A stretch of DNA of 64,000 nucleotides from Actinacidiphila sp. DG2A-62. Lineage in GTDB: Bacteria > Actinomycetota > Actinomycetes > Streptomycetales > Streptomycetaceae. The translations under genes were made by a program, and so were the position numbers. Location: positions 3,167,001 to 3,231,000 of the forward strand of contig NZ_JAYMGI010000002.1 of NCBI RefSeq assembly GCF_035825295.1, written 5' to 3'. Below are positions 10,360 to 57,499 of the stretch, one piece after another. Position 1 is the stretch's first letter. Every line of letters starts with the position of its first letter. The notes beneath the pieces are model-generated. The model saw nothing but the letters and a program-made list of their open reading frames with translations. It made no database searches and was not told where the DNA came from.

Positions 10360-11691
10360 ATGGCTGACTCGGCTTCCCGCATCCTCGCCTTCGCCGAACA
10401 CGCCCTCTCGTCGCCGTTCCCGCTGCGCGTGCGCGCCTGGGACGGCAGCGAGGCCGGGCCCTCCGGCGCACCCGCACTCGTCGTCCGCAGGCGCCGCGCG
10501 CTGCGCCGCCTGCTCTACCGCCCCGGCGAACTCGGCCTGGCGCGCGCCTGGGTGGCCGGCGACCTCGACGTCGACGGCGACCTCTACACCGCGCTCGACC
10601 TGCTCTCCGGCCTGTTCTGGGACCGCGACGAGCCCGAGACGCCCCCGACCGCGCTCCGCTCGCTGCGCCGCACCGCGAGCGCGCTGCGGGACCCGGCGAC
10701 CTACCGGCTGGCCCGCGAGGCGCTGGCGCTGGCCGGCCCCGGGCTGCCGCCGGTCGCGCCGCAGGAGGAGGTGCGCCGCCGGGCCGGCATCGCGCACACC
10801 AAGCGCCGCGACAAGGAGGCGATCGCCCACCACTACGACGTGGGCAACGACTTCTACGGCCTGGTGCTCGGCCCGTCGCTGGTCTACTCGTGCGCGGTGT
10901 GGCCCGAACTGCCGCAGGGCGCGGGCACTTTGGAGGAGGCGCAGCGGGCCAAGCTGGATCTGGTCTGCCGCAAGCTGGGGCTGCGCGAGGGGCAGCGGCT
11001 GCTGGACGTCGGCTGCGGCTGGGGGTCGATGGTGCTGCACGCCGTCGAGCACTACGGGGTGCGGGCGACCGGCGTCACGCTGTCCGTGGAGCAGGCGGCG
11101 CTGGCCCGCAAGCGGGTGGCCGACGCCGGGCTGACCGACCGGATCGAGATCCGGGTGCAGGACTACCGCGACGTCAGGGACGGACCGTACGACGCGATCT
11201 CGTCGATCGGGATGGCCGAGCACGTGGGCAGCGAGCGGTATCTGGAGTACGCGCAGGACCTGTACGCGCTGCTGGCGCCCGGCGGCCGGCTGCTCAACCA
11301 CCAGATCGGCCGGCGTCCGCTGCGCGCCGAGGAGGAGTACCGGATCGACGAGTTCATCGACCGGTACGTCTTCCCCGACGGGGAGTTGGCGCCGATCGGC
11401 GTGACGGTGTCGCGGCTGGAAGAAGCCGGTTTCGAGGTCCGGGACGTCGAGGCGCTGCGCGAGCACTACGCGCGGACGCTACGCGCGTGGGTGGCGAACC
11501 TGGAGGCGAACTGGAAGCAGGCGGTAGCCGCGACGTCTCCCGGCCGGGCCCGGGTGTGGCGGTTGTACATGGCGGCGTCGGCGGTCTCGTTCGAGCGCAA
11601 CCGGATCGGCGTGAACCAGGTGCTGGCGGTCCGCACACCCGCCGACGGGAGGTCAGGGTTGCCCCCGACCAGGCGTTCCTGGCTCTCCTGA
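10360..11691 (+). CDS. Cyclopropane-fatty-acyl-phospholipid synthase-like methyltransferase
   Basis: The 443-residue SAM-dependent enzyme is of the CFA/mycolic acid cyclopropane synthase family, which add a methylene or methyl group across the double bond of membrane phospholipid acyl chains. After a substrate-binding N-terminal domain (about 1-130), the signature AIAHHYDVGNDFYGLVLG lies near residue 155, the SAM-binding loop LLDVGCGWGSMVLHA at about 215-229, and the catalytic-region motif SIGMAEHVGSERY near 285. The C-terminal segment SFERNRIGVNQVLAVR is typical of the family. The ATG start has only a weak upstream site (CTCGGA); a GTG at 10318 is in frame but would give an atypical N-terminus. 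It appears monocistronic behind a palindromic operator candidate. Confidence 0.88.
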   Translation: MADSASRILAFAEHALSSPFPLRVRAWDGSEAGPSGAPALVVRRRRALRRLLYRPGELGLARAWVAGDLDVDGDLYTALDLLSGLFWDRDEPETPPTALRSLRRTASALRDPATYRLAREALALAGPGLPPVAPQEEVRRRAGIAHTKRRDKEAIAHHYDVGNDFYGLVLGPSLVYSCAVWPELPQGAGTLEEAQRAKLDLVCRKLGLREGQRLLDVGCGWGSMVLHAVEHYGVRATGVTLSVEQAALARKRVADAGLTDRIEIRVQDYRDVRDGPYDAISSIGMAEHVGSERYLEYAQDLYALLAPGGRLLNHQIGRRPLRAEEEYRIDEFIDRYVFPDGELAPIGVTVSRLEEAGFEVRDVEALREHYARTLRAWVANLEANWKQAVAATSPGRARVWRLYMAASAVSFERNRIGVNQVLAVRTPADGRSGLPPTRRSWLS

Positions 11692-11895
11692 GTCCGCACG
11701 CGCGTTCTTCGCGGGCCCCCTCGGCGGCGTCCCCGCGCGCCGCCCACACCCCTTCGCGCCCCTTTTCGCGCCCCCGGGCGCGCCCCTCGCGCCCCCCATG
11801 CCCCGGTTGCGCAGAGCGATTTCACGTCACTTGTGCGTGAGGAGTGACGCGGAGGGGAACGGCTTCTGTGGTGCGGCTGAAGGCGTGGAACAGGG

Positions 11896-35649: not shown

Positions 35650-39212
<3,563 letters not shown>

Positions 39213-42043: not shown

Positions 42044-42862
42044 GAGGTCCTCCCGCGGCCGTCGAAGGAACCGGGGGTGCGGGGGTCGTCCCCCGGATGG
42101 AATCGCAGCATGCGTTCCAGCACGGACTCCGCGGTCGGGCTGTACATCTCGTCCACGATCCGGCCGTCGGCCAGGTAGAGCACGCGGTCGGCGTAGGAGG
42201 CGGCGACCGGGTCGTGGGTGACCATCACGATGGTCTGGCCCAGTTCGTCGACCGAGCGGCGCAGGAAGCCGAGCACCTCGGCGCCGGCCCGCGAGTCGAG
42301 GTTCCCGGTCGGCTCGTCGCCGAAGATGATCTCGGGGCGGGCGGCGAGCGCGCGGGCGACCGCCACCCGCTGCTGCTGGCCGCCGGACAGCTGCGTCGGG
42401 CGGTGCTTGAGCGCCGGCCAGGCCCACGGTCTCCACCACCCGGTCGAACCAGTCGCGGTCCACCCTGCGGCCCGCGATGTCCATGGGCAGCGTGATGTTC
42501 TCCGCCGCGTTGAGCGTCGGCAGCAGGTTGAAGGACTGGAAGATGAAGCCGATCTTGTCGCGGCGCAGCCGGGTGAGCCGCTTGTCCTTCAGTCCGGTGA
42601 TCTCCGTGTCGCCGATCCAGATGCGGCCCTCGGAGACCGTGTCGAGGCCGGCCAGGCAGTGCATCAGCGTGGACTTGCCGGAGCCCGAGGGGCCCATGAT
42701 CGCGGTGAACCTGCTGCGCGCGATGTCGACGTCGACCGCGTCGAGCGCGAGCACGCGGGTCTCGCCGGAGCCGTACGCCTTGGTCACGGTGCGCGCCGCG
42801 GCGGCAACGGCCGAACGTTCTCCGCTGCCCCCAGCCGTGGGAATCGTCATGGCCGTCGTCAC
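42040..42862 (-). CDS. MacB-like ABC transporter ATP-binding protein (frame break)
   Basis: The reconstructed ~273-residue ATPase powers the adjacent permease. Walker A is [17 protein letters not shown] (about residue 53), the Q-loop [11 protein letters not shown], the signature [15 protein letters not shown], Walker [13 protein letters not shown], and the H-loop MVTHDP. The frame breaks at about 42408-42415, just before the signature: upstream translation ends VVETVGLAG and downstream resumes [11 protein letters not shown], requiring one base removed or two added. It is presumably a sequencing error. The GTG start has GGGAG 5 nt upstream. Two inverted repeats 190-220 nt upstream may be operators. 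Confidence 0.88.
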
Positions 42863-43148: not shown

Positions 43149-43649
43149 TCAGCGCACGGTGAGGCGGACCGGGGCGACGCCGCCGACCAGGGCGGCCAGC
43201 GCGCTGTCGATGTCCGGGCCGGCGTACCAGTCGCCGGTGTGGTCGACGGTGTAGACCCGCCCCTCCGCGTCGATGGCCAGCAGCGCGCCGCTGGCCGGCT
43301 CCTCGCCGAGCGGCGCGGCCTCGGTCTCCAGCGCGCGCCCGAGGTCGCCGAGGGTGCGCGCCAGGTGGAGGCCGCGCATCGGGTCCAGGAGGAGCGCGGA
43401 CGGCGCGATCTGCCGCGCGGGGCCCGTCGCGGCCGGCACCGAGAGCCCGCCGAACTCCGCCCACGCCTCGACCGCCGCGGGGAACACCGCGTGCCGGTGG
43501 CCGCCGGGCGAGACATGGGCGCGCAGCGCGTCCGCCCACTCCTCGGCCTGCTTGATGTCCCAGCGGCCCGGCTGCCAGCCCGCCGCGCGCAGGGCCGCGT
43601 CGACGCCGACCGGGAAACGTGTGGTGCCGCCGGTCATACGGCCGTTCAT
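43149..43649 (-). CDS. SUKH-3 domain immunity-type protein
   Basis: The 166-residue protein matches the SUKH-3 family: RFPVGVDAALRAAGWQPGRWDIKQAEEWADALRAH at the N-terminus, then VEAWAEFGGLSV and the C-terminal AIDAEGRVYTVDHTGDWYAGPDIDSALAAL. SUKH proteins neutralise nuclease and deaminase toxins of polymorphic toxin systems. The ATG overlaps the stop of the YwqJ deaminase gene by 4 bp, so toxin-like and immunity-like proteins should be made in fixed ratio. AAGGGG precedes the start. No signal peptide is present. Confidence 0.83.
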   Translation of the reverse strand: MNGRMTGGTTRFPVGVDAALRAAGWQPGRWDIKQAEEWADALRAHVSPGGHRHAVFPAAVEAWAEFGGLSVPAATGPARQIAPSALLLDPMRGLHLARTLGDLGRALETEAAPLGEEPASGALLAIDAEGRVYTVDHTGDWYAGPDIDSALAALVGGVAPVRLTVR

Positions 43650-44173
43650 GCCCCTTCCGAGCCGGGCACGGCCGGATCGCCCGGGTTGACCGGCCGCACC
43701 CCGAAGTGCGCGAGCAGCGGCGCGCAGGAGCGGCACGGCGGCACGTACACGCCGTGGGTGGGGTCGCCGTCCTCGCGTATCCGGCGGGCGGTGACCTTCG
43801 CGCCGCGCAGCGCCTTGCGCGCCTCGCCCTGGGTGAGCGGCTTGCGCGAGGCCCGCTTGCCGCGGTTGGCCTCGACGGCGGTCAGGTGCCGGGAGATCAG
43901 CACCGCCTCCGCGCACCGGCCGGTGAACCGCTCACGCTGGCCGGCCGGCAGCGCGTCGAGGAAGTCCCGCACGATCGGGTGCAGTTCGGGGGCCTGCTCG
44001 CCTTTGGCCGCGGTGCAGGTGAGGACCTCGTCGCGGATGGACAGCGCGGCGGCCACCGCGGGCAGGATCCCGTCCCTGCGGTGCCGCAGCACGGGCGGCC
44101 CTCCGGCGCTGCGTGCGGCGCTCCAGCTCAGCCTCGGATCGGCGGCCCCCGCCGCCGGTGCGTGCATTGTCAT
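43646..44173 (-). CDS. YwqJ-type nucleic-acid deaminase-like protein
   Basis: This 175-residue protein has the zinc-deaminase signature of the YwqJ family: the CAEAVLISRHLTAVEANRG block near residue 87 (Cys/Glu) and PPCRSCAPLLAHFGV near 145 (PCxxC). These would bind zinc and activate water for cytidine or adenine deamination. No secretion signal or toxin leader is attached, and it is coupled directly to a SUKH-3 gene. It could be a regulated intracellular deaminase or a domesticated toxin. The start is uncertain (ATG at 44173 or 44167); GGAGGG lies 13 nt before the first. The 292-bp divergent region up to 44466 shows no clear promoter. Confidence 0.78.
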   Translation of the reverse strand: MTMHAPAAGAADPRLSWSAARSAGGPPVLRHRRDGILPAVAAALSIRDEVLTCTAAKGEQAPELHPIVRDFLDALPAGQRERFTGRCAEAVLISRHLTAVEANRGKRASRKPLTQGEARKALRGAKVTARRIREDGDPTHGVYVPPCRSCAPLLAHFGVRPVNPGDPAVPGSEGA

Positions 44174-44465
44174 GTTCTACGTGCATCCCTCCGTCCGCCC
44201 GCCGGAAGCGGGCGTTCCCCCGTATGTCGATCAGAGTGCCAAACGCGCCGTCGGATGCGGAAGCGATACGCCGGGCAGGGGCCATCCTGTGTGGGCCATG
44301 TCACCGAGGTGTGACGTTCCGTCGGCAGCGTCGACACAGCACGTGCACAGATTGCGCCCACGTTGCGTCCGCGCCATGGACGCCCCGCGGCGGGTGCGGA
44401 GAAGATCGGGGCTCGGCCCCGCATCCGCGGGCTCCCCCCACTGCCGAACGAGGGAACGTGACCCC

Positions 44466-45317
44466 ATGCGCAAGTCCCTTGCCCCACCCCGTTCCGCGCG
44501 TCCCGCACCTTCTTCTGCGACCTCCCGTGTCCGGCGGGGCGTCGTCGTCCTGGGCGTCCTGCCCGCGCTGATGTTCGCCGCCGGCTGCTCGGGCGGCGGG
44601 TCAACCGCCCCCGACGGCGGGTCCGGCGCCTCGCCGTCGGCGGCGTCCACGCTCGCGGGCCACGCGCCGCTCACCGTGCAGCAGTTGACGCGGGCCCTGG
44701 TCACCGACGCGGACGTGCCCGGCTGGGTGGTCCAGCAGACCTCCGACGACGACGGGGTGCAGACCACCGCGCCCGAGGGGTTCGACCCCGACGACCTGAT
44801 GGCGCAGGCCGACGGCGGCGGCCAGTCCGTGCTGCACGCGGACACCCCGGCCTGCCAGCCGCTCGCGGACGTCGTCGGCTCCAAGCCCGCGGTGCACCGG
44901 ATGGCGTCGGTCGGCGCGACCTTCGCGCAGGAGTCCAAGGGCGGCGGACCCGAGGTGGTCAACCAGATGCTGATCGCCAGTCACGCGCCCGGTGACGCGC
45001 AGCGGGTGATGGACGGCATACGGGCCGCGCTGCGCTCGTGCTCCTCCTTCCAGGCCACCGACGGCGAGGGGCGGCGCACGCCGTTCACCGTCACGCCCGG
45101 TCCCGCGGTGCGGGTGGGCGACGCGTCGGTCGCGTACACGATGACCGACTCGTCGGACAAGAAGACCGGCGCCGCCCTGGTGACGGTGGTGCGGACCGGC
45201 GACACCGTCACCTCCTACGTCTCCACGAAGGCGGCGGGCGGCGCGGGACCGGTGCCGCTCGCGGTCGCCCGCAAGCAGTCCGCGAAGCTGGCGGCGCTGC
45301 TGGGGCGGCGCGAGTAG
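44466..45317 (+). CDS. Lipoprotein of unknown function (copy 1)
   Basis: A 283-residue predicted lipoprotein: a basic N-terminus, hydrophobic segment and lipobox FAAGCSGG (cysteine near residue 41), then a Gly/Ser/Ala linker. A globular domain of about 220 residues follows (LTVQQLTRALVTDADVPGW ... CQPLADVVGSKP ... LRSCSSFQATDG ... GAALVTVVRTGDTVTSYV). The pattern, with a cysteine pair, resembles PknH-type extracellular sensor domains, but I cannot assign it firmly. The next gene encodes a diverged relative. It is divergent from the deaminase/SUKH-3 pair. Confidence 0.7.
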   Translation: MRKSLAPPRSARPAPSSATSRVRRGVVVLGVLPALMFAAGCSGGGSTAPDGGSGASPSAASTLAGHAPLTVQQLTRALVTDADVPGWVVQQTSDDDGVQTTAPEGFDPDDLMAQADGGGQSVLHADTPACQPLADVVGSKPAVHRMASVGATFAQESKGGGPEVVNQMLIASHAPGDAQRVMDGIRAALRSCSSFQATDGEGRRTPFTVTPGPAVRVGDASVAYTMTDSSDKKTGAALVTVVRTGDTVTSYVSTKAAGGAGPVPLAVARKQSAKLAALLGRRE

Positions 45318-45319
45318 CG

Positions 45320-45471
45320 GTCGCGGTCGGCTGTCGCGGCTGGCTGTCGCGGTCGGGGGCGGTCGGCCGTCGCGGTCGGCCGTCGCGGTCGGCCGTCGCG
45401 GTCGGCTGTACGGACGGCGGCCGGGCGGACGGGCGCCGGGTGGACGCCGGGTGGACGCCGGGTGGACGCCG
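45320..45471. repeat. Two intergenic tandem repeat arrays (13-bp and 11-bp units)
   Basis: The 414-bp gap between the two lipoprotein genes contains an array based on CGCGGTCGGCCGT (about four clean units in 45361-45408, degenerate from 45320) and three units of GGGTGGACGCC at about 45438-45470. The rest is G/C-rich palindromic sequence (45480-45560). No gene is visible. Confidence 0.75.
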
Positions 45472-45731
45472 GCCTGGCGGTCGGGCGGTGACGGGTCGGC
45501 CGGGCGGGCGACTGGATGGCCGCCAGGCCGCCCGACCGCCCGACCGCCGGCCGCAGGTCGCCGCCCGTTCGTGACCGCTTTGTGAGCTGAGCGGTGTCCG
45601 GTCGGGCCGGCCCGGTGCCGTAGAGTCGCGCGGCAGCGGGCCGGCGCTTGCCGCGCGGTCCGCGCGCAGCCGCGCCGGGACGGGCGCGCTCCCCGGCGAC
45701 CGGGGCGGGACCGACACAGGGAATCGATGCG

Positions 45732-46508
45732 ATGAGGAATCGGCGGATACGTGCCGTCAGCCGCCTACTCGCCGGTAGCGGCCAGGTGGACGGGCGGACC
45801 GGAGCGGTGAAGGCGGGGGCGGCGGTCGCGGCGCTGGTGCCGGTGCTCGCGCTCACCGCGGCGTGCGGAGGCGGCGACAAGAAAGCCCCGGCTCCGCAGG
45901 ACGTGCGCGCGTCCGGCGCGGTGTCCACCGCGAAGCTCACTCAGGCGCTGCTCACCGACGGCGACGTCGACCACGTGCAGGTGCTGCCGGCCGGCAGCAA
46001 GACGCAGTTGCTCGGCGGGGAGCAGCAGGCCGTCCCGGGGTCCTGCGAGCCGATCGCCGACCAGTGGAGCAGCCGCCCCAAGCACCCGCGCCAGGTGTAC
46101 GTCGGCGCGATGCTCACCGACACCGCGGACAAGGACAAGAACGCCAAGACCATCAGCCTGACTGTCGTCGCCACGTACAAGAAGGGCGAGGCGAAGCAGG
46201 CGGTGGACGAGCTGGCCGCGGCGCTGCGCACCTGCACGTCGTACCGGACGACGCGGAACGGGGTCACCACGACCTTCCGGGTCAAGGCCGTCCCGCAGCC
46301 GTCGCCGGCCGGCGACCAGCAGCTCGCGTACACGATCGCGGACCCGTCGAAGGGCGACGCGGGCCGGGCACTGGTCACCGTGGTCCGGGTCGGCGACACC
46401 ACGGCCGCGTACGAGTCGGTCCGCGCCGACCACAAGCTCGCGACGCTGCGGGCGGCCATCCCGGCCAAGCAGGCGGAGAAGCTGCGGAAGGCCGCGGAGA
46501 AGGACTGA
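45732..46508 (+). CDS. Lipoprotein of unknown function (copy 2)
   Basis: The 258-residue product is a predicted lipoprotein with lipobox LTAACGGG (cysteine near residue 46) and a domain similar in layout to the preceding gene: STAKLTQALLTDGDVDHVQVL, SCEPIADQWSS, LRTCTSYRTTRNG, GRALVTVVRVGDTTAAYES. The order is the same but sequence identity is modest, indicating an old duplication. AGGGAA 9 nt upstream supports the ATG. Possibly a ligand-sensing extracellular domain; not assigned. Confidence 0.7.
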   Translation: MRNRRIRAVSRLLAGSGQVDGRTGAVKAGAAVAALVPVLALTAACGGGDKKAPAPQDVRASGAVSTAKLTQALLTDGDVDHVQVLPAGSKTQLLGGEQQAVPGSCEPIADQWSSRPKHPRQVYVGAMLTDTADKDKNAKTISLTVVATYKKGEAKQAVDELAAALRTCTSYRTTRNGVTTTFRVKAVPQPSPAGDQQLAYTIADPSKGDAGRALVTVVRVGDTTAAYESVRADHKLATLRAAIPAKQAEKLRKAAEKD

Positions 46509-46586
46509 CGCCCGGCGCCGCGCCGCCGGGGCGAGCGGGTGACATGCTCAGGACGGGAGTTGTCCACAGGTACGGAGACCAGGCCG

Positions 46587-46615
46587 TTCACCGCCTCCGC
46601 CCCACCCCCTAGGCT
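46587..46615 (+). promoter_or_regulatory. Putative promoter of the WHH-SUKH operon
   Basis: TTCACC at 46587-46592 and TAGGCT at 46610-46615 are separated by 17 bp, about 40 nt before the start codon at 46654. Confidence 0.5.
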
Positions 46616-46653
46616 GTGGTCGACAGCGAGAGCAGCAGCAGGGGGCATCGGCC

Positions 46654-47664
46654 ATGACGACAGGCGCGCACGGGGTGGGAGCACCTCCGGGAACAGGAGC
46701 CGCGGCGCAGTCCGCGCCGCCCAACGCGGCCTATGCGGGCCAGGTCGTGCACTTCCCCGACCCCGTCAGGGCGGCCCGCCACCCGCGGGGCGTCTGGGTC
46801 GACGAGCACGGCCACCCGGACTTCTCGCCCTACGCACGGGCTGCCGCGGAGATCGCGGAGCCGCCGGAGGGCTTCGGCGTGGACGAACTGCGCCTGACCG
46901 ACTACGTATCGGCGAACGCGGCGATGCACGCCGCCGGCCACGAGCTGTGGGGCAGCCTGTCCCCGGTCGGCACCCCGCACGGCTGGACCTGGCACCACGT
47001 CTTCGGCACCCGCCGGCTCGAACTGGTCCCGGTCGAGGTCAAGGCGCTGCTGCGGCACCACGGAGGACTGGCCACCTCGGTCGCCGACCACGGCAAGCGC
47101 GGCACCCGCCCGCTCCAGGAGACCCGGCCCGCGCACTTCGGGCTGCCCAAGGACCCGGTCGCGGTCAGCGAGCAGCAGGTCCGGGACGTGGAGGAGGAGC
47201 TGGGCTACCGCCTGCCCGGCGCCTACCGCACCTTCCTGAAGGCGGCCGGCGGCTGCGCGCCCAAGGGCGTCGCGCTCGACCCGGAGCTGGGGCTGCTGAT
47301 CGACCAGCCGTTCTTCACCGTCCGCGACGAGGCGGCGGTCAACGACCTGGTCTACGTGAACAAGTGCCTGCGCGACCACCTGACGAAGGACTACCTGGCG
47401 ATCGGCTACGTCCAGGGCGGCGTGCTGGCGGTCAAGACGAGGGGCGAGCGCACCGGCTCGGTGTGGTTCTGCGCCTACGACGACGCGCGCGACGGCGACC
47501 GCTGGGACACCCCGGCGGACCGCGTGGCCGAACTCCTGCTCGGCTGCGGCGACACGCTCGACGAGTTCCTGCTGCGCCTGGTCGGCAATCCGCCGGAGCT
47601 GGAGACGGTGGCGAACCTGATGGTGGACGGCGGCTTCGCCACGGCCGTCCCGGTGGAGGGGTGA
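46654..47664 (+). CDS. WHH-type HNH/EndoVII nuclease domain fused to SUKH-1 (SMI1/KNR4) domain
   Basis: This 336-residue protein joins a toxin-like and an immunity-like domain in one chain. Residues about 25-150 resemble WHH nucleases of the HNH/EndoVII group: GHPDFSPYA near 53-61, the W113-H114-H115 triad in GWTWHHVFG, then LELVPVEVKALLRHHGG. In typical WHH domains the residue after LVPxxV/I is a histidine; here it is K130, so activity may be lost or altered. Residues about 170-330 form a SUKH-1 domain (VSEQQVRDVEEELGYRLPGAYRTFLKAAGG). No signal peptide is visible. It is followed after 7 nt by the Imm35/deaminase/SUKH-4 gene, so both form an operon. An intracellular, perhaps regulatory, role is inferred. 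Confidence 0.78.
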   Translation: MTTGAHGVGAPPGTGAAAQSAPPNAAYAGQVVHFPDPVRAARHPRGVWVDEHGHPDFSPYARAAAEIAEPPEGFGVDELRLTDYVSANAAMHAAGHELWGSLSPVGTPHGWTWHHVFGTRRLELVPVEVKALLRHHGGLATSVADHGKRGTRPLQETRPAHFGLPKDPVAVSEQQVRDVEEELGYRLPGAYRTFLKAAGGCAPKGVALDPELGLLIDQPFFTVRDEAAVNDLVYVNKCLRDHLTKDYLAIGYVQGGVLAVKTRGERTGSVWFCAYDDARDGDRWDTPADRVAELLLGCGDTLDEFLLRLVGNPPELETVANLMVDGGFATAVPVEG

Positions 47665-47671
47665 GGCCGCG

Positions 47672-50600
47672 ATGGTGACGTTCGCTCAGGCACAGGAGCG
47701 CGCGGAGCGCTGGATCAACGCTGACGTGCCGGCCTACCAGACGCGCGAGATCCGGGTCCGCGAGTTCGACCTCGGCTTCGTGGTGTGGTCGGAGTCGCGC
47801 GAGGGCGGCCCGCTGTCCGACGACGGGCTGGTCCGGGTGATCATCGCCCGCGACAGCGGCGAGGCCACCTTGTGGCCGGCACTGCCGATCGGCGAGCTGA
47901 TCCGGCGGTACGAGGAGGAGTACGGCGCGCAGCCGCAGGACGCGGTGCCGGAACCGCCGCAGCGGCTCGACCTGGAGGCGACGTCCTTCCTGCTGAGCCC
48001 CCCGCAGTGGCTCCAGGACGCGGCGGACCGGATGGGCATCCCCGACCGCAGGAGCGGTTCGACCAACGGCGGCGCGTCCACGCCGGCCCGGCGGAAGCCG
48101 CCGCAGGTGGCGGCGCCGGGGGCGGACACGGTTCCGGGGCGCCTGAGTTCTCCGCACCGGAGTTCTCCGCACCGGGGTCGGCGGCCGGGCCGACGGGCGC
48201 GGGACCCGCGGACCCGCAGTACCAGGACGCGCGGGCCGCCGACTCGCAGGGTGTGGACTCGCAGGCCGCGGGCGCGCACGCCGCGGGGGCCTCGGACGGC
48301 ATCGACTACCGCAAGTCCGGGGCGGACGTTCCCGCGCAGGGCTCCGGGGCGCGGGGCGCGGACGCACAGGGTTCCGGGGCGGACGGCTCCGGACCGGTCC
48401 GCGACGGCGGCGACCAGGAACGGGCCGGCGGCGAGCGGCCGGGGGGCGTCGACTTCCGCAGGCCGCGTACGCCCGAGCCGGAGCCGGAGGCCGCCCCGGT
48501 CGGCGGCGTCTCCTACCTGCGGCCGGGCGACGCCCCGGCGGCCGACGCTGGCGCCGTGCGGGACTCGCGGGACTCGCGGGACGAGGCGGCGACCGGGCAG
48601 GAGAACGCGGCCGGCGCGGGTGTCGACGCCGAGGACCGGATGGGCAAGGTGTCGTACCTGCGGCCCTCCGACCGGGCCGCCGTGCAGGACGCCGGGGCAA
48701 GCGCGCCGGCGGCGGACGCCGGCGGGAGCTGGGCCGGCAAGACGGTCACGGATTCCGGCGAGGGGCAGTCGGTGGCGGTTCCCGCGACCGTGTTCGCGCC
48801 CCCGATCACCGGCGCGGACGAGCCCGAGGACGCGCCGCGGGCCGGCGCGGAGGCGAAGACCGAGCTGATGCCCAGGGGCAGCGCGCTGCCGCCGACGAGG
48901 ATCGCACCGCCGCAGGAACCGCAGGGCGGGCCGCGCCCGGGCGTTCCGCACACGATGGGCGGGTCGCCGTACCCGCCGCCGGCCGGCTGGCGGTGCCGCT
49001 GCCGCCGCCCGGCGCCGTTCCGCCCGCCCCGGCGCCCCTCGGCGCCGCGGACATCGCGGGCCTGGAGACGGCGAAGGCCCAGCCCGGCGGGCTCCCGCCG
49101 CGCGCGCCGCAGCAGGGACCGGGCACGCCTCCGCCGCCGGGGGCCGGCGCCCCGCCGCCCGCGCCGGGCGCGCCCGGCGCCGGGACCCCGCCCCCGCCTG
49201 GCGCGGGCACTCCCCCGCCCGGCACGGGCGACCCGCACTACGCCGCGACGATGCTCGCCACCCCCGGCGCCACTCCGCCGCCTCCGCCCGGGGTGGGCGC
49301 TCCGCCGCCCGGAGCAGGCGACCCGCACTACGCGGCCACCATGCTCGCGCCGGGCGCGGGCACGCCTCCGCCGCCGGGAGCGGGTGCTCCGCCGCCTCCC
49401 CCGGCGCGGGGACTCCCCCGCCGCCGCCCGGCGCCGGCGCCCCGCCCGGCGCCGGCGCCCCGCCCGGCACGGGCGACCCGCACTACGCCGCGACGATGCT
49501 CGCCACCCCGGGCAGCACCCCGCCGCCTCCGCCCGGGGCGGGCGGCCCGCCGCTTCCCCCGCCCGGTGTGGGGACGCCCCCGCCGCATCCGGGTGCGGGC
49601 GCTCCGCCGCCGGGGGCGGGGAACCCGCACTACGCTGCCACGATGCTCGCGCCGGGCGCGGGGTCGCCGCCGCCCGGGCCGCAGGGGATGGCGCCGCCTC
49701 CGGCGCCGGCCGGGTACGGGTATCCGCAGGGAGCCCCGGTGCCGACGGTCGGCCCCGGGTACATGGCGGTGCTGCGCTACCGCGGGCACGACGGGAGCGA
49801 GCAGCAGCTGATCCGGCGGTCCGCGCCGGGCACACCGCACCCGGAGTGGCAGCTGCTGCACGAGCTGCGGTCGCTGGGCATACGGCCCGAGCAGGTGCTG
49901 GAACTGCACACCGAGCTGGAGTCCTGCGACCTGCCGGGCGGCTACTGCACCCGGATGATCCGGGAGACGTGGCCGCAGGTGCGGATCAGCCACACCGCCC
50001 CGTACGGCAGGGACCACGCCAGCCGCCAGCAGGGTGTGCAGCACCTGCTGACCCACCAGGGCGAGCTGCACCAGGTGGCGGGCGCGCCCGCGCGCCCGCA
50101 GCCGCAGCGGGTGCCGATGCCCGACCCGCACGCGGTGCTGCGGGTGCCGCCGGTCGGCCTGGACGTGATCGGGCAGGAGTTGATGGGGGCGTTCGGGCCG
50201 CAGGGGGTGTTCCGGTTCGACCAGCGCGCGGTCTCGCGCGCCGGGGTGCCGGACATCGTGGCCCAGACGCTGGTGTGGTCGGGGCTGCCGACGGACTTCG
50301 GACCGTTCTTCTGGGCCCAGGCCCAGCCGGGCCAGCCGGTGCCCACCCTCGCCGAACTCGCCGCCCAGCGCGGCCTGCAGCCGGCGTCGGACGCGGGTTC
50401 GTATCTGGTGATGGGGAACGACTTCGGCCGCCAACTGTGCGTGCAGTACGGCACGGCGCACATCGTCGCGCTGCCGCTGGAGGCCGGTCCCGGCGGTACG
50501 CCCGCGGCGGCGCCGCAGTTCGTGAACTCCAGCCTGCCGGAGTTCGCCCGCTGCCTCGCGCTGCTCGGCCGGATGTGGCCGCTGCGGATCGGGCTCACGC

Positions 50601-50728
50601 CCGAGCAGGCGGGGCGCTGGACGGTCGACTTCCAGGCGCAGTTGGCCGCGCAGGACCCGGCGGCGATAGCGTCGCCGGAGAACTGGTGGTCGGTGCTCAT
50701 CGAGCAGATGTGGGACGGCCTGCTCTGA
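47672..50728 (+). CDS. Imm35 (YrhB) - proline-rich repeat - deaminase-like - SUKH-4 fusion protein (three frame breaks)
   Basis: The reconstructed ~1,019-residue protein begins with an Imm35/YrhB domain (about 1-85: AQERAERWINADVP ... EFDLGFVVWSE ... LWPALPIGELIRRYEEEYG). Then comes a long disordered Gly/Ala/Pro region with VSYLRP repeats and four DPHYAATMLA-type units. A deaminase-like domain (about 695-810) has a zinc-type HPE motif near 724 and the cysteines of ESCDLPGGYC near 753-760. A SUKH-4 domain (about 820-1019) contains LVMGNDFGRQLCV and FVNSSLPEFARCLALL. The frame breaks at the GGGG run 48136-48139, near 48983-48988, and in the C run 49398-49402; one added base repairs each. No export signal is seen. 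It is co-transcribed with the WHH-SUKH gene. Confidence 0.75.
49230..49650 (+). repeat. Coding repeat: four DPHYAATMLA units in the proline-rich linker
   Basis: Units begin near 49230, 49319, 49475 and 49620; each encodes (D/N)PHYAATMLA, and they are separated by Pro/Gly-rich spacers such as TPPPPPGAGAPPPG. The intervals vary. The repetitiveness probably explains one of the frame breaks (49398-49402). Confidence 0.75.

Positions 50729-54770: not shown

Positions 54771-57499
<2,729 letters not shown>

Follow-up and report, generated by a model that had tools for sequence, protein, structure and literature searches.

A deaminase/SUKH gene cluster with toxin-operon relatives at a conserved chromosomal site in the Streptomycetaceae

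Toxin and immunity domains of several families, among them YwqJ, XOO_2897, and WHH toxins and SUKH immunity proteins, have been described as parts of variable conflict systems, the polymorphic toxin systems, and that description also notes fusions of SUKH to toxin domains (PMC3482391). We analyzed 64,000 nucleotides of Actinacidiphila sp. DG2A-62 (contig NZ_JAYMGI010000002.1, positions 3,167,001 to 3,231,000; called the window here and numbered from its first nucleotide), in which four genes at 43149-50728 encode a SUKH-3 protein, a YwqJ-type deaminase, a WHH/SUKH-1 fusion protein, and a fusion of a weakly Imm35-like domain, a proline-rich linker, an XOO_2897-type deaminase, and SUKH-4. This locus and its counterparts in related genomes, called the core locus below, resemble polymorphic toxin systems in their toxin types, SUKH domains, and toxin/SUKH fusions, but differ from them in that no delivery domain was found, the chromosomal place is fixed, the WHH motif carries a lysine, and catalytic and immunity domains are joined.

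RhsP, a WHH toxin, is delivered by a secretion system, and the double-stranded DNA deaminase toxin DddA presumably represents another deaminase family with an unrelated immunity protein. Compared to the core locus, RhsP has a separate immunity protein, RhsPI, and a histidine at the position of the core lysine (PDB 8bd1 and 8h8a-c); DddA (PDB 6u08) shares the deaminase fold and differs in being, by its PDB entry title, a secretion-system effector.

We favor the reading that the four genes form a domesticated, vertically inherited cytoplasmic deaminase/SUKH module of the Streptomycetaceae, related to type-VII-style toxin operons, and give it a probability of a little under one half (about 0.48). 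It is based on the observed conservation, gene order, position, motif pattern, purifying selection, and toxin-operon relatives of the locus. In nearly every genome examined of this family, which is known for antibiotic makers, the domains form a stable component of the chromosome; each family is already known, and their arrangement appears to be new. We found no literature on this locus in open-licence papers among the matches listed, and database names for its products are merely 'SMI1/KNR4 family protein', 'HNH endonuclease', or 'SUKH-4 family immunity protein'.

Domains and reading frames of the four genes

A preliminary description of this stretch reported a chromosomal array of toxin- and immunity-type domains, which our analysis partly confirmed, with the corrections given below; the conservation of the cluster marks it as more than a chance grouping. 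The assignments were as follows.

43149-43649, minus strand: SUKH-3 protein, 166 amino acids; PF14433, E 3.3e-53 (scanned as 43149-43640), 180.2 bits against a cut-off of 23
43646-44173, minus strand: YwqJ-type deaminase, 175 amino acids, with CxE and PPCxxC; PF14431, E 1.1e-30, 107.1 bits against a cut-off of 25.9
46654-47664, plus strand: WHH/SUKH-1 fusion protein, 336 amino acids; PF14414 and PF09346
46972-47076, plus strand: WHH motif region, VPVEVK, with Lys in place of the WHH-toxin His; PF14414, E 1.2e-12, 47.8 bits against a cut-off of 25.1
47164-47535, plus strand: SUKH-1 (SMI1_KNR4) domain of the WHH fusion; PF09346, E 4.1e-13, 50.5 bits against a cut-off of 25.4
47672-48109, plus strand: N-terminal domain of the deaminase/SUKH-4 fusion, weakly Imm35-like; 7 invariant columns in 18 sequences
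48110-49741, plus strand: proline-rich linker of the deaminase/SUKH-4 fusion, spread over several reading frames here; from the open reading frame list and relatives
49751-50053, plus strand: XOO_2897-type deaminase domain, HxE...C...C (HTELESCDLPGGYC); PF14440, E 1.6e-37, 128.1 bits against a cut-off of 27
50171-50707, plus strand: SUKH-4 domain, C-terminal to the deaminase; PF14435, E 4.7e-50, 170.6 bits against a cut-off of 25.5

The hidden Markov model search of these families thus recovered SUKH-1, SUKH-3, SUKH-4, YwqJ, XOO_2897, and WHH. The Imm35 assignment fared less well: PF15567 matched 3 of 18 aligned N-terminal domains at E values up to 10 (best 0.0045) and did not match the copy in the window. 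The 4-bp overlap (ATGA) of the YwqJ stop with the SUKH-3 start, between two domains that both exceed their Pfam cut-offs, is as first reported and is also present in 23 of 47 relatives. The WHH/SUKH-1 fusion likewise stands, with PF14414 and PF09346 above cut-off in a single open reading frame, which is separated from the next gene by 7 nucleotides here and by a median of ~13 nucleotides, estimated from match ends, in 128 relatives.

The last gene had been described as a single Imm35/proline-rich/deaminase/SUKH-4 fusion. By Pfam, the XOO_2897 deaminase and SUKH-4 share one open reading frame (49496-50728, plus strand), but in the window the gene as a whole starts in one frame at 47672, shifts through two further frames, and is back in the initial frame at its end. 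As a fusion it is genuine, because the gene is a single open frame of 691-1098 amino acids in 106 of the 112 relatives with both gene ends available and broken in the remaining 6. Assembly indels are the likeliest cause of the split in the window, because the neighboring genes for an ABC-transporter ATPase (near 42412) and phosphoenolpyruvate carboxylase (PEPC; near 55790) are also frame-broken here compared to their orthologues.

No hydrophobic leader or lipobox was detected in the four proteins by hydropathy and a simple pattern, with the last gene represented by its N- and C-terminal pieces, and Pfam found neither a delivery domain (WXG, RHS, or similar) nor a repeat part in them. This agrees with the reported lack of a signal peptide and of a type VII secretion system or other export leader, and because neither leader nor delivery domain was found, we place the module inside the cell.

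Conservation and chromosomal position

The named loci discussed here are the best 80 of 510, ranked by WHH/SUKH-1 similarity, and come mostly from Streptomyces and Actinacidiphila; among the matches listed, these two genera are also the closest named relatives of the window. The listed homologues are 120 of 747 for WHH/SUKH-1, 120 of 1982 for deaminase/SUKH-4, and 120 of 232 for a family of short paralogues described below.

Linkage of the four genes in related genomes had been named beforehand as a test of the array, and all 63 named loci with sufficient flank on both sides keep the four genes in the same order and orientation. SUKH-3 was found in each of the 76 named loci with room on its side, and 16 of 18 additional loci chosen across genera have all four genes, the other two (L081 and L086) ending too early. 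The deaminase/SUKH-4 part matched 245 of 249 family genomes. In 238 of these the E value was 1.3e-132 or lower, and the other seven (G062, G077, G087, G093, G085, G120, and G127) gave weak matches with E values of 4.8e-76 or higher; we take the weak matches of the g18 and g2 genomes not to be orthologues. There was no match to this part in the other four family genomes (G035, G075, G236, and G247). With order kept in 63 of 63 loci and this part matched in 245 of 249 genomes, we saw neither the swapped C-terminal toxin domains nor the patchy presence of polymorphic toxin systems. Selection on the locus is purifying, with median ratios of non-synonymous to synonymous substitution rates (dN/dS) of 0.13-0.35.

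The WHH/SUKH-1 protein was present in 49 of 61 genomes, namely the source genome, 34/34 of the same genus, 1/2 other family members, and, outside the family, 13/14 genomes of family f3 (~40% identity, presumably the Catenulisporaceae) and 0/10 others. A separate 61-genome sample of the family had WHH in 57, the XOO_2897 deaminase in 59, and YwqJ in 61 genomes. In a class-wide sample of 246 genomes, WHH was found in 27, of which 22 belong to the same family as the window, and the deaminase/SUKH-4 part in 28, comprising 22 from this family, five from f19 (four clear matches and one marginal), and one marginal match in f43. The source genome, which is 95.57% complete, has one match each to WHH, the XOO_2897 deaminase, and YwqJ, all within the locus.

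The locus is flanked by mfd on one side and PEPC on the other, and the following neighbors serve as landmarks.

35659-39131, minus strand: mfd, housekeeping landmark; tblastn with the L051 protein, named by TIGR00580
51506-52477, plus strand: DivIVA-domain protein; TIGR03544, 30.3 bits (cut-off 22), and PF05103, 22.2 bits, under the cut-off of 28
54810-57496, plus strand: phosphoenolpyruvate carboxylase, frame-broken near 55790; tblastn, query named by NF000584
61398-63994, minus strand: pth, rplY, and prs, housekeeping landmarks; queries named by NCBIfam models, with glmU just past the window

WHH/SUKH-1 adjoins mfd in 8/8 loci of family f3, with PEPC directly on the opposite side in 4 of them. 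Genomes of g2 and g18 without the core fusion have a YwqJ/SUKH-3 pair, ~50% identical, in the pth-rplY-prs-glmU neighborhood (L237, L238, and L239, the landmarks of L239 being read by eye), and the pair lies close to pth, rplY, prs, and glmU in the g2 genomes G035 and G075. Because of the mfd/PEPC linkage in f3 and the pth-prs linkage in g2 and g18, the pieces appear to have long resided in one housekeeping neighborhood, and probably did so before these families diverged.

Of 113 loci, 110 have a co-directional DivIVA-domain gene downstream, at a median distance of 236 nucleotides to the match and within 468 nucleotides in 105 of the 110; three loci with room for it have none. The five-gene block keeps together while two other genes change side: where found, a histidine-kinase gene is upstream in 73 loci and downstream in 32, and an ABC gene is upstream in 29 and downstream in 22. 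As a side observation, the YwqJ deaminase and SUKH-3 form one open frame of 328 amino acids at 5659-6642 of L094, a natural fusion of the pair, and this locus lacks a DivIVA-domain gene.

Toxin-operon relatives and catalytic residues

Three g18 genomes (G062, G077, and G087) each encode a protein with a C-terminal WHH domain, followed by WHH(Lys)-SUKH-1 and then by YwqJ with CxD. Pfam identified WXG100_2, two Gln_amidase stretches, and WHH in the G062 toxin and confirmed the WHH/SUKH-1, YwqJ, and next-lying SUKH-3 domains; WXG and SUKH-3 were confirmed in G062 alone, and the G077 toxin is cut by the contig end, with Gln_amidase and WHH visible. Compared to the core locus, these operons (L215, L216, and L217) share the succession of WHH(Lys)-SUKH-1 and YwqJ in all three cases but have a toxin of their own (WXG and Gln_amidase confirmed in L215), a YwqJ with CxD, and a WHH/SUKH-1 protein only 37-41% identical to the core copies, and they lack the core XOO_2897/SUKH-4 fusion, to which there are weak matches only. 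The L215 protein at 11066-11809, in which SUKH-3 was confirmed, has a C-terminal tail that by eye resembles the core Imm35-like N-terminal domain.

A second kind of operon, in L102 and L104, has a WXG-XOO_2897 toxin, then SUKH-4, and then a SUKH-4/deaminase fusion in reversed order; L103 resembles both by sequence. At 2643-4436 of L104, a protein that weakly matches AAA and WD40 adjoins the SUKH-4/deaminase fusion. The earlier statement that toxin and immunity are kept apart in known systems goes too far, given the SUKH/toxin fusions noted in PMC3482391 and those lying beside WXG toxins in L102 and L104. These comparisons show that the core parts have counterparts in type-VII-style toxin operons, where such toxins repeatedly stand beside a protein that joins a toxin-like domain to SUKH; derivation would have run from toxin to core.

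The core deaminases keep their catalytic motifs. HxE, C, and C of the XOO_2897 domain are intact in 120/120 listed homologues, a further locus, L083, having YxE instead of HxE (Tyr for His), and CxE and CxxC of YwqJ are kept in 47/47 orthologues (45 by pattern, two by eye). The short paralogues (P0241-P0360, from Thermobifida, Nocardiopsis, Streptomyces, and Kitasatospora) have the same domain order as the core fusion and share its N-terminal domain in the five loci aligned, but they are 419-474 amino acids long, have no long linker, and have lost the deaminase residues in 120/120 of those listed. This Imm35-like/pseudo-deaminase/SUKH-4 family also occurs at L096-L100, and at 5532-7481 of L100 a P-loop-like protein (by eye) adjoins the pseudo-deaminase.

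The WHH domain of the core fusion has a different pattern. The position after the LVP segment is Lys in 32/32 aligned rows (window included), in 17/17 and 80/80 sequences of two other sets, and in 120/120 listed homologues (119 by pattern, one read), these sets overlapping. His is kept there in WHH domains that lie at protein ends without SUKH-1, namely in the three g18 toxins, L218, L221/L236, and L234 (L221/L236 are 64-amino-acid open frames, L234 lacks the end of the motif, and L235 was left out). We take this His to be a metal ligand, as in colicin-type HNH nucleases. Because Lys replaces the His of WHH toxins, the core domain is probably a pseudo-nuclease, and the cleavage first attributed to it is at odds with the Lys found in every family copy checked. 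We also considered an active nuclease: the profile match agrees with one, but the Lys substitution weakens the case. In 8/8 f3 loci, and in L230 of f20, which by eye has a SUKH-like tail, it is instead the first His of the pair that is missing. A caveat to the Lys/His comparison is that RhsP, with His at the core-Lys position, lacks the last His of the motif (HxGG), so that the ligand set is not uniform.

Proposed function and competing explanations

In the domesticated module that we favor, the YwqJ and XOO_2897 deaminases would probably act on the cell's own nucleic acids or nucleotides. SUKH-3, encoded by the adjoining and often overlapping gene, would restrain YwqJ, and SUKH-4, on the same chain and predicted as one unit with the deaminase, would restrain XOO_2897. 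The WHH domain, a probable pseudo-nuclease with SUKH-1 attached, would probably serve binding or titration, and the four genes may have a joint function. An AlphaFold2 model of the deaminase/SUKH-4 part (49742-50728) had a mean predicted local distance difference test score (pLDDT) of 92.3 and a predicted template modeling score of 0.89, and Foldseek matched the deaminase to DddA (PDB 6u08) with a probability of 0.95 and an E value of 0.022. The WHH/SUKH-1 model was poor (mean pLDDT 55.7, from a narrow alignment), and we use its match to 8bd1 cautiously. Sequence searches of solved structures returned no match for WHH/SUKH-1, four for deaminase/SUKH-4 (best E 0.13), and one for YwqJ (E 0.13), none of which we trust.

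The threonine motifs of the proline-rich linker and the DivIVA-domain neighbor suggest that activity may be regulated and localized. In the 64 of 120 listed proteins parsed for this purpose, median linker length is 428 residues, and 26% of the linker is Pro. Across the 97 linkers parsed from 120 proteins, we counted T-x-[LVIFM] 586 times, scoring each tandem copy separately, compared to 183 ± 12 times in shuffled sequences, and a control motif, S-x-[LVIFM]-x-P, was not enriched (51 versus 65 in shuffles). In the window, the linker contains the following repeats.

49242-49258, 49332-49348, 49487-49503, and 49634-49650, plus strand: four AATMLA motifs, found by DNA pattern

These are the only 4 exact matches to the DNA pattern genome-wide, and all lie within the deaminase/SUKH-4 gene. 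Short repeated motifs of the YAATMLAGP type and, by eye, of the VSYLRP type occupy 48300-49741. Such motifs are possible phosphorylation or docking sites, and a kinase or FHA domain might read the threonines. A more specific proposal is that of a core editing system, in which the two deaminases would modify endogenous DNA, RNA, or nucleotides. SUKH domains and the pseudo-nuclease partner would hold them in check until a signal read by the Thr-motif linker releases them, the DivIVA-domain neighbor would position them, and the system would serve hyphal growth, development, or the stress response; we regard this full scheme as unlikely. Should the deaminases indeed target the nucleic acids of their own cell, this bacterial family would possess a core, built-in base-modification switch; should they not, the locus would be a remarkable example of toxin folds retained for regulation. 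Because ordinary Streptomyces carry the locus, both readings can be tested directly.

The main rival is that the genes provide orphan polyimmunity, in which SUKH-1, SUKH-3, SUKH-4, and the Imm35-like domain neutralize incoming toxins from competing actinobacteria, with the toxin-like domains serving as decoys or scaffolds. We consider it somewhat unlikely, and closer to the favored reading than any other. Orphan immunity genes have been described (PMC12247911, PMC10539506). The rival gains from the three g18 genomes, where a WHH toxin, WHH(Lys)-SUKH-1, and YwqJ (CxD) stand together (WXG, Gln_amidase, and SUKH-3 confirmed in G062), and from the WXG-XOO_2897 toxin, SUKH-4, and SUKH-4/deaminase of L102 and L104. 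It also explains well why the WHH domain and the short paralogues look catalytically dead. The locus has several immunity domains (three SUKH and one weakly Imm35-like), and no toxin of the same families was found elsewhere in its genome, as expected of orphan immunity; the lack of a WHH, XOO_2897, or YwqJ toxin outside the locus in a genome that is 95.57% complete can also be held against it. Both core deaminases, however, keep their motifs, and near-universality at a fixed housekeeping place is unlike the 'rapidly evolving' orphan immunity genes named in the title of PMC12247911.

We think it improbable that all of the toxin-like domains are non-catalytic parts for nucleic-acid binding or assembly that work with the DivIVA-domain neighbor at the hyphal tip or septum. 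The co-directional downstream position of that gene in 110 of 113 loci, at a median of 236 nucleotides to the match, is consistent with such a role, as are the Lys in WHH and the dead short paralogues, but conserved adjacency by itself is no proof of joint function, and the listed core deaminases show no change at their zinc-binding or Glu residues, the one exception being the L083 locus (Tyr for His).

Very improbable, in our judgment, is a role in phage defense or abortive infection, with the deaminases being released when a phage infects the cell. The layout of an effector with a built-in inhibitor may resemble such systems, but the locus is core and syntenic, and a PADLOC scan of the four proteins at E values up to 0.1 assigned no family to them, the sole match (E 0.097) being the DivIVA-domain neighbor. 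Phage records held no match for the deaminase/SUKH-4 part, and PHROGs gave weak matches only (best E 2e-4). The phage defense suggested in the preliminary description thus finds no support in PADLOC or phage records and sits poorly with a near-universal, housekeeping-linked placement. Plasmid origin was also considered and set aside, WHH/SUKH-1 having just two distant plasmid matches. Ordinary exported toxin/immunity pairs are hardly credible, as the four proteins share domain families with the polymorphic toxins of PMC3482391 but have no WXG, leader, or repeat delivery part that we found, carry the immunity domain on the same chain, and are vertically conserved.

For the domesticated intracellular system first proposed, domestication and intracellular place are supported by linkage, the lack of a leader, and purifying selection; cleavage by WHH, phage defense, and a sensor role for two lipoproteins are not. 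The lipoprotein-like genes lie between the YwqJ and WHH/SUKH-1 genes of the window.

44466-45317, plus strand: lipoprotein-like gene 1, PknH_C-like; PF14032 below cut-off (scanned from 44502), lipobox by pattern
45732-46508, plus strand: lipoprotein-like gene 2; weak PF14032, with a hydrophobic N-terminus ending in LTAAC (by eye)

The divergent gap that would hold them is under 600 bp in 62 of 78 named loci, mostly Streptomyces, leaving no room for embedded sensors there, and because of this gap we place the lipoproteins outside the family-wide unit. We therefore dropped them as members of the unit; they do occur in the closer relatives, where at least one is present in 27 of 31 loci and both are present in 19 of 31.

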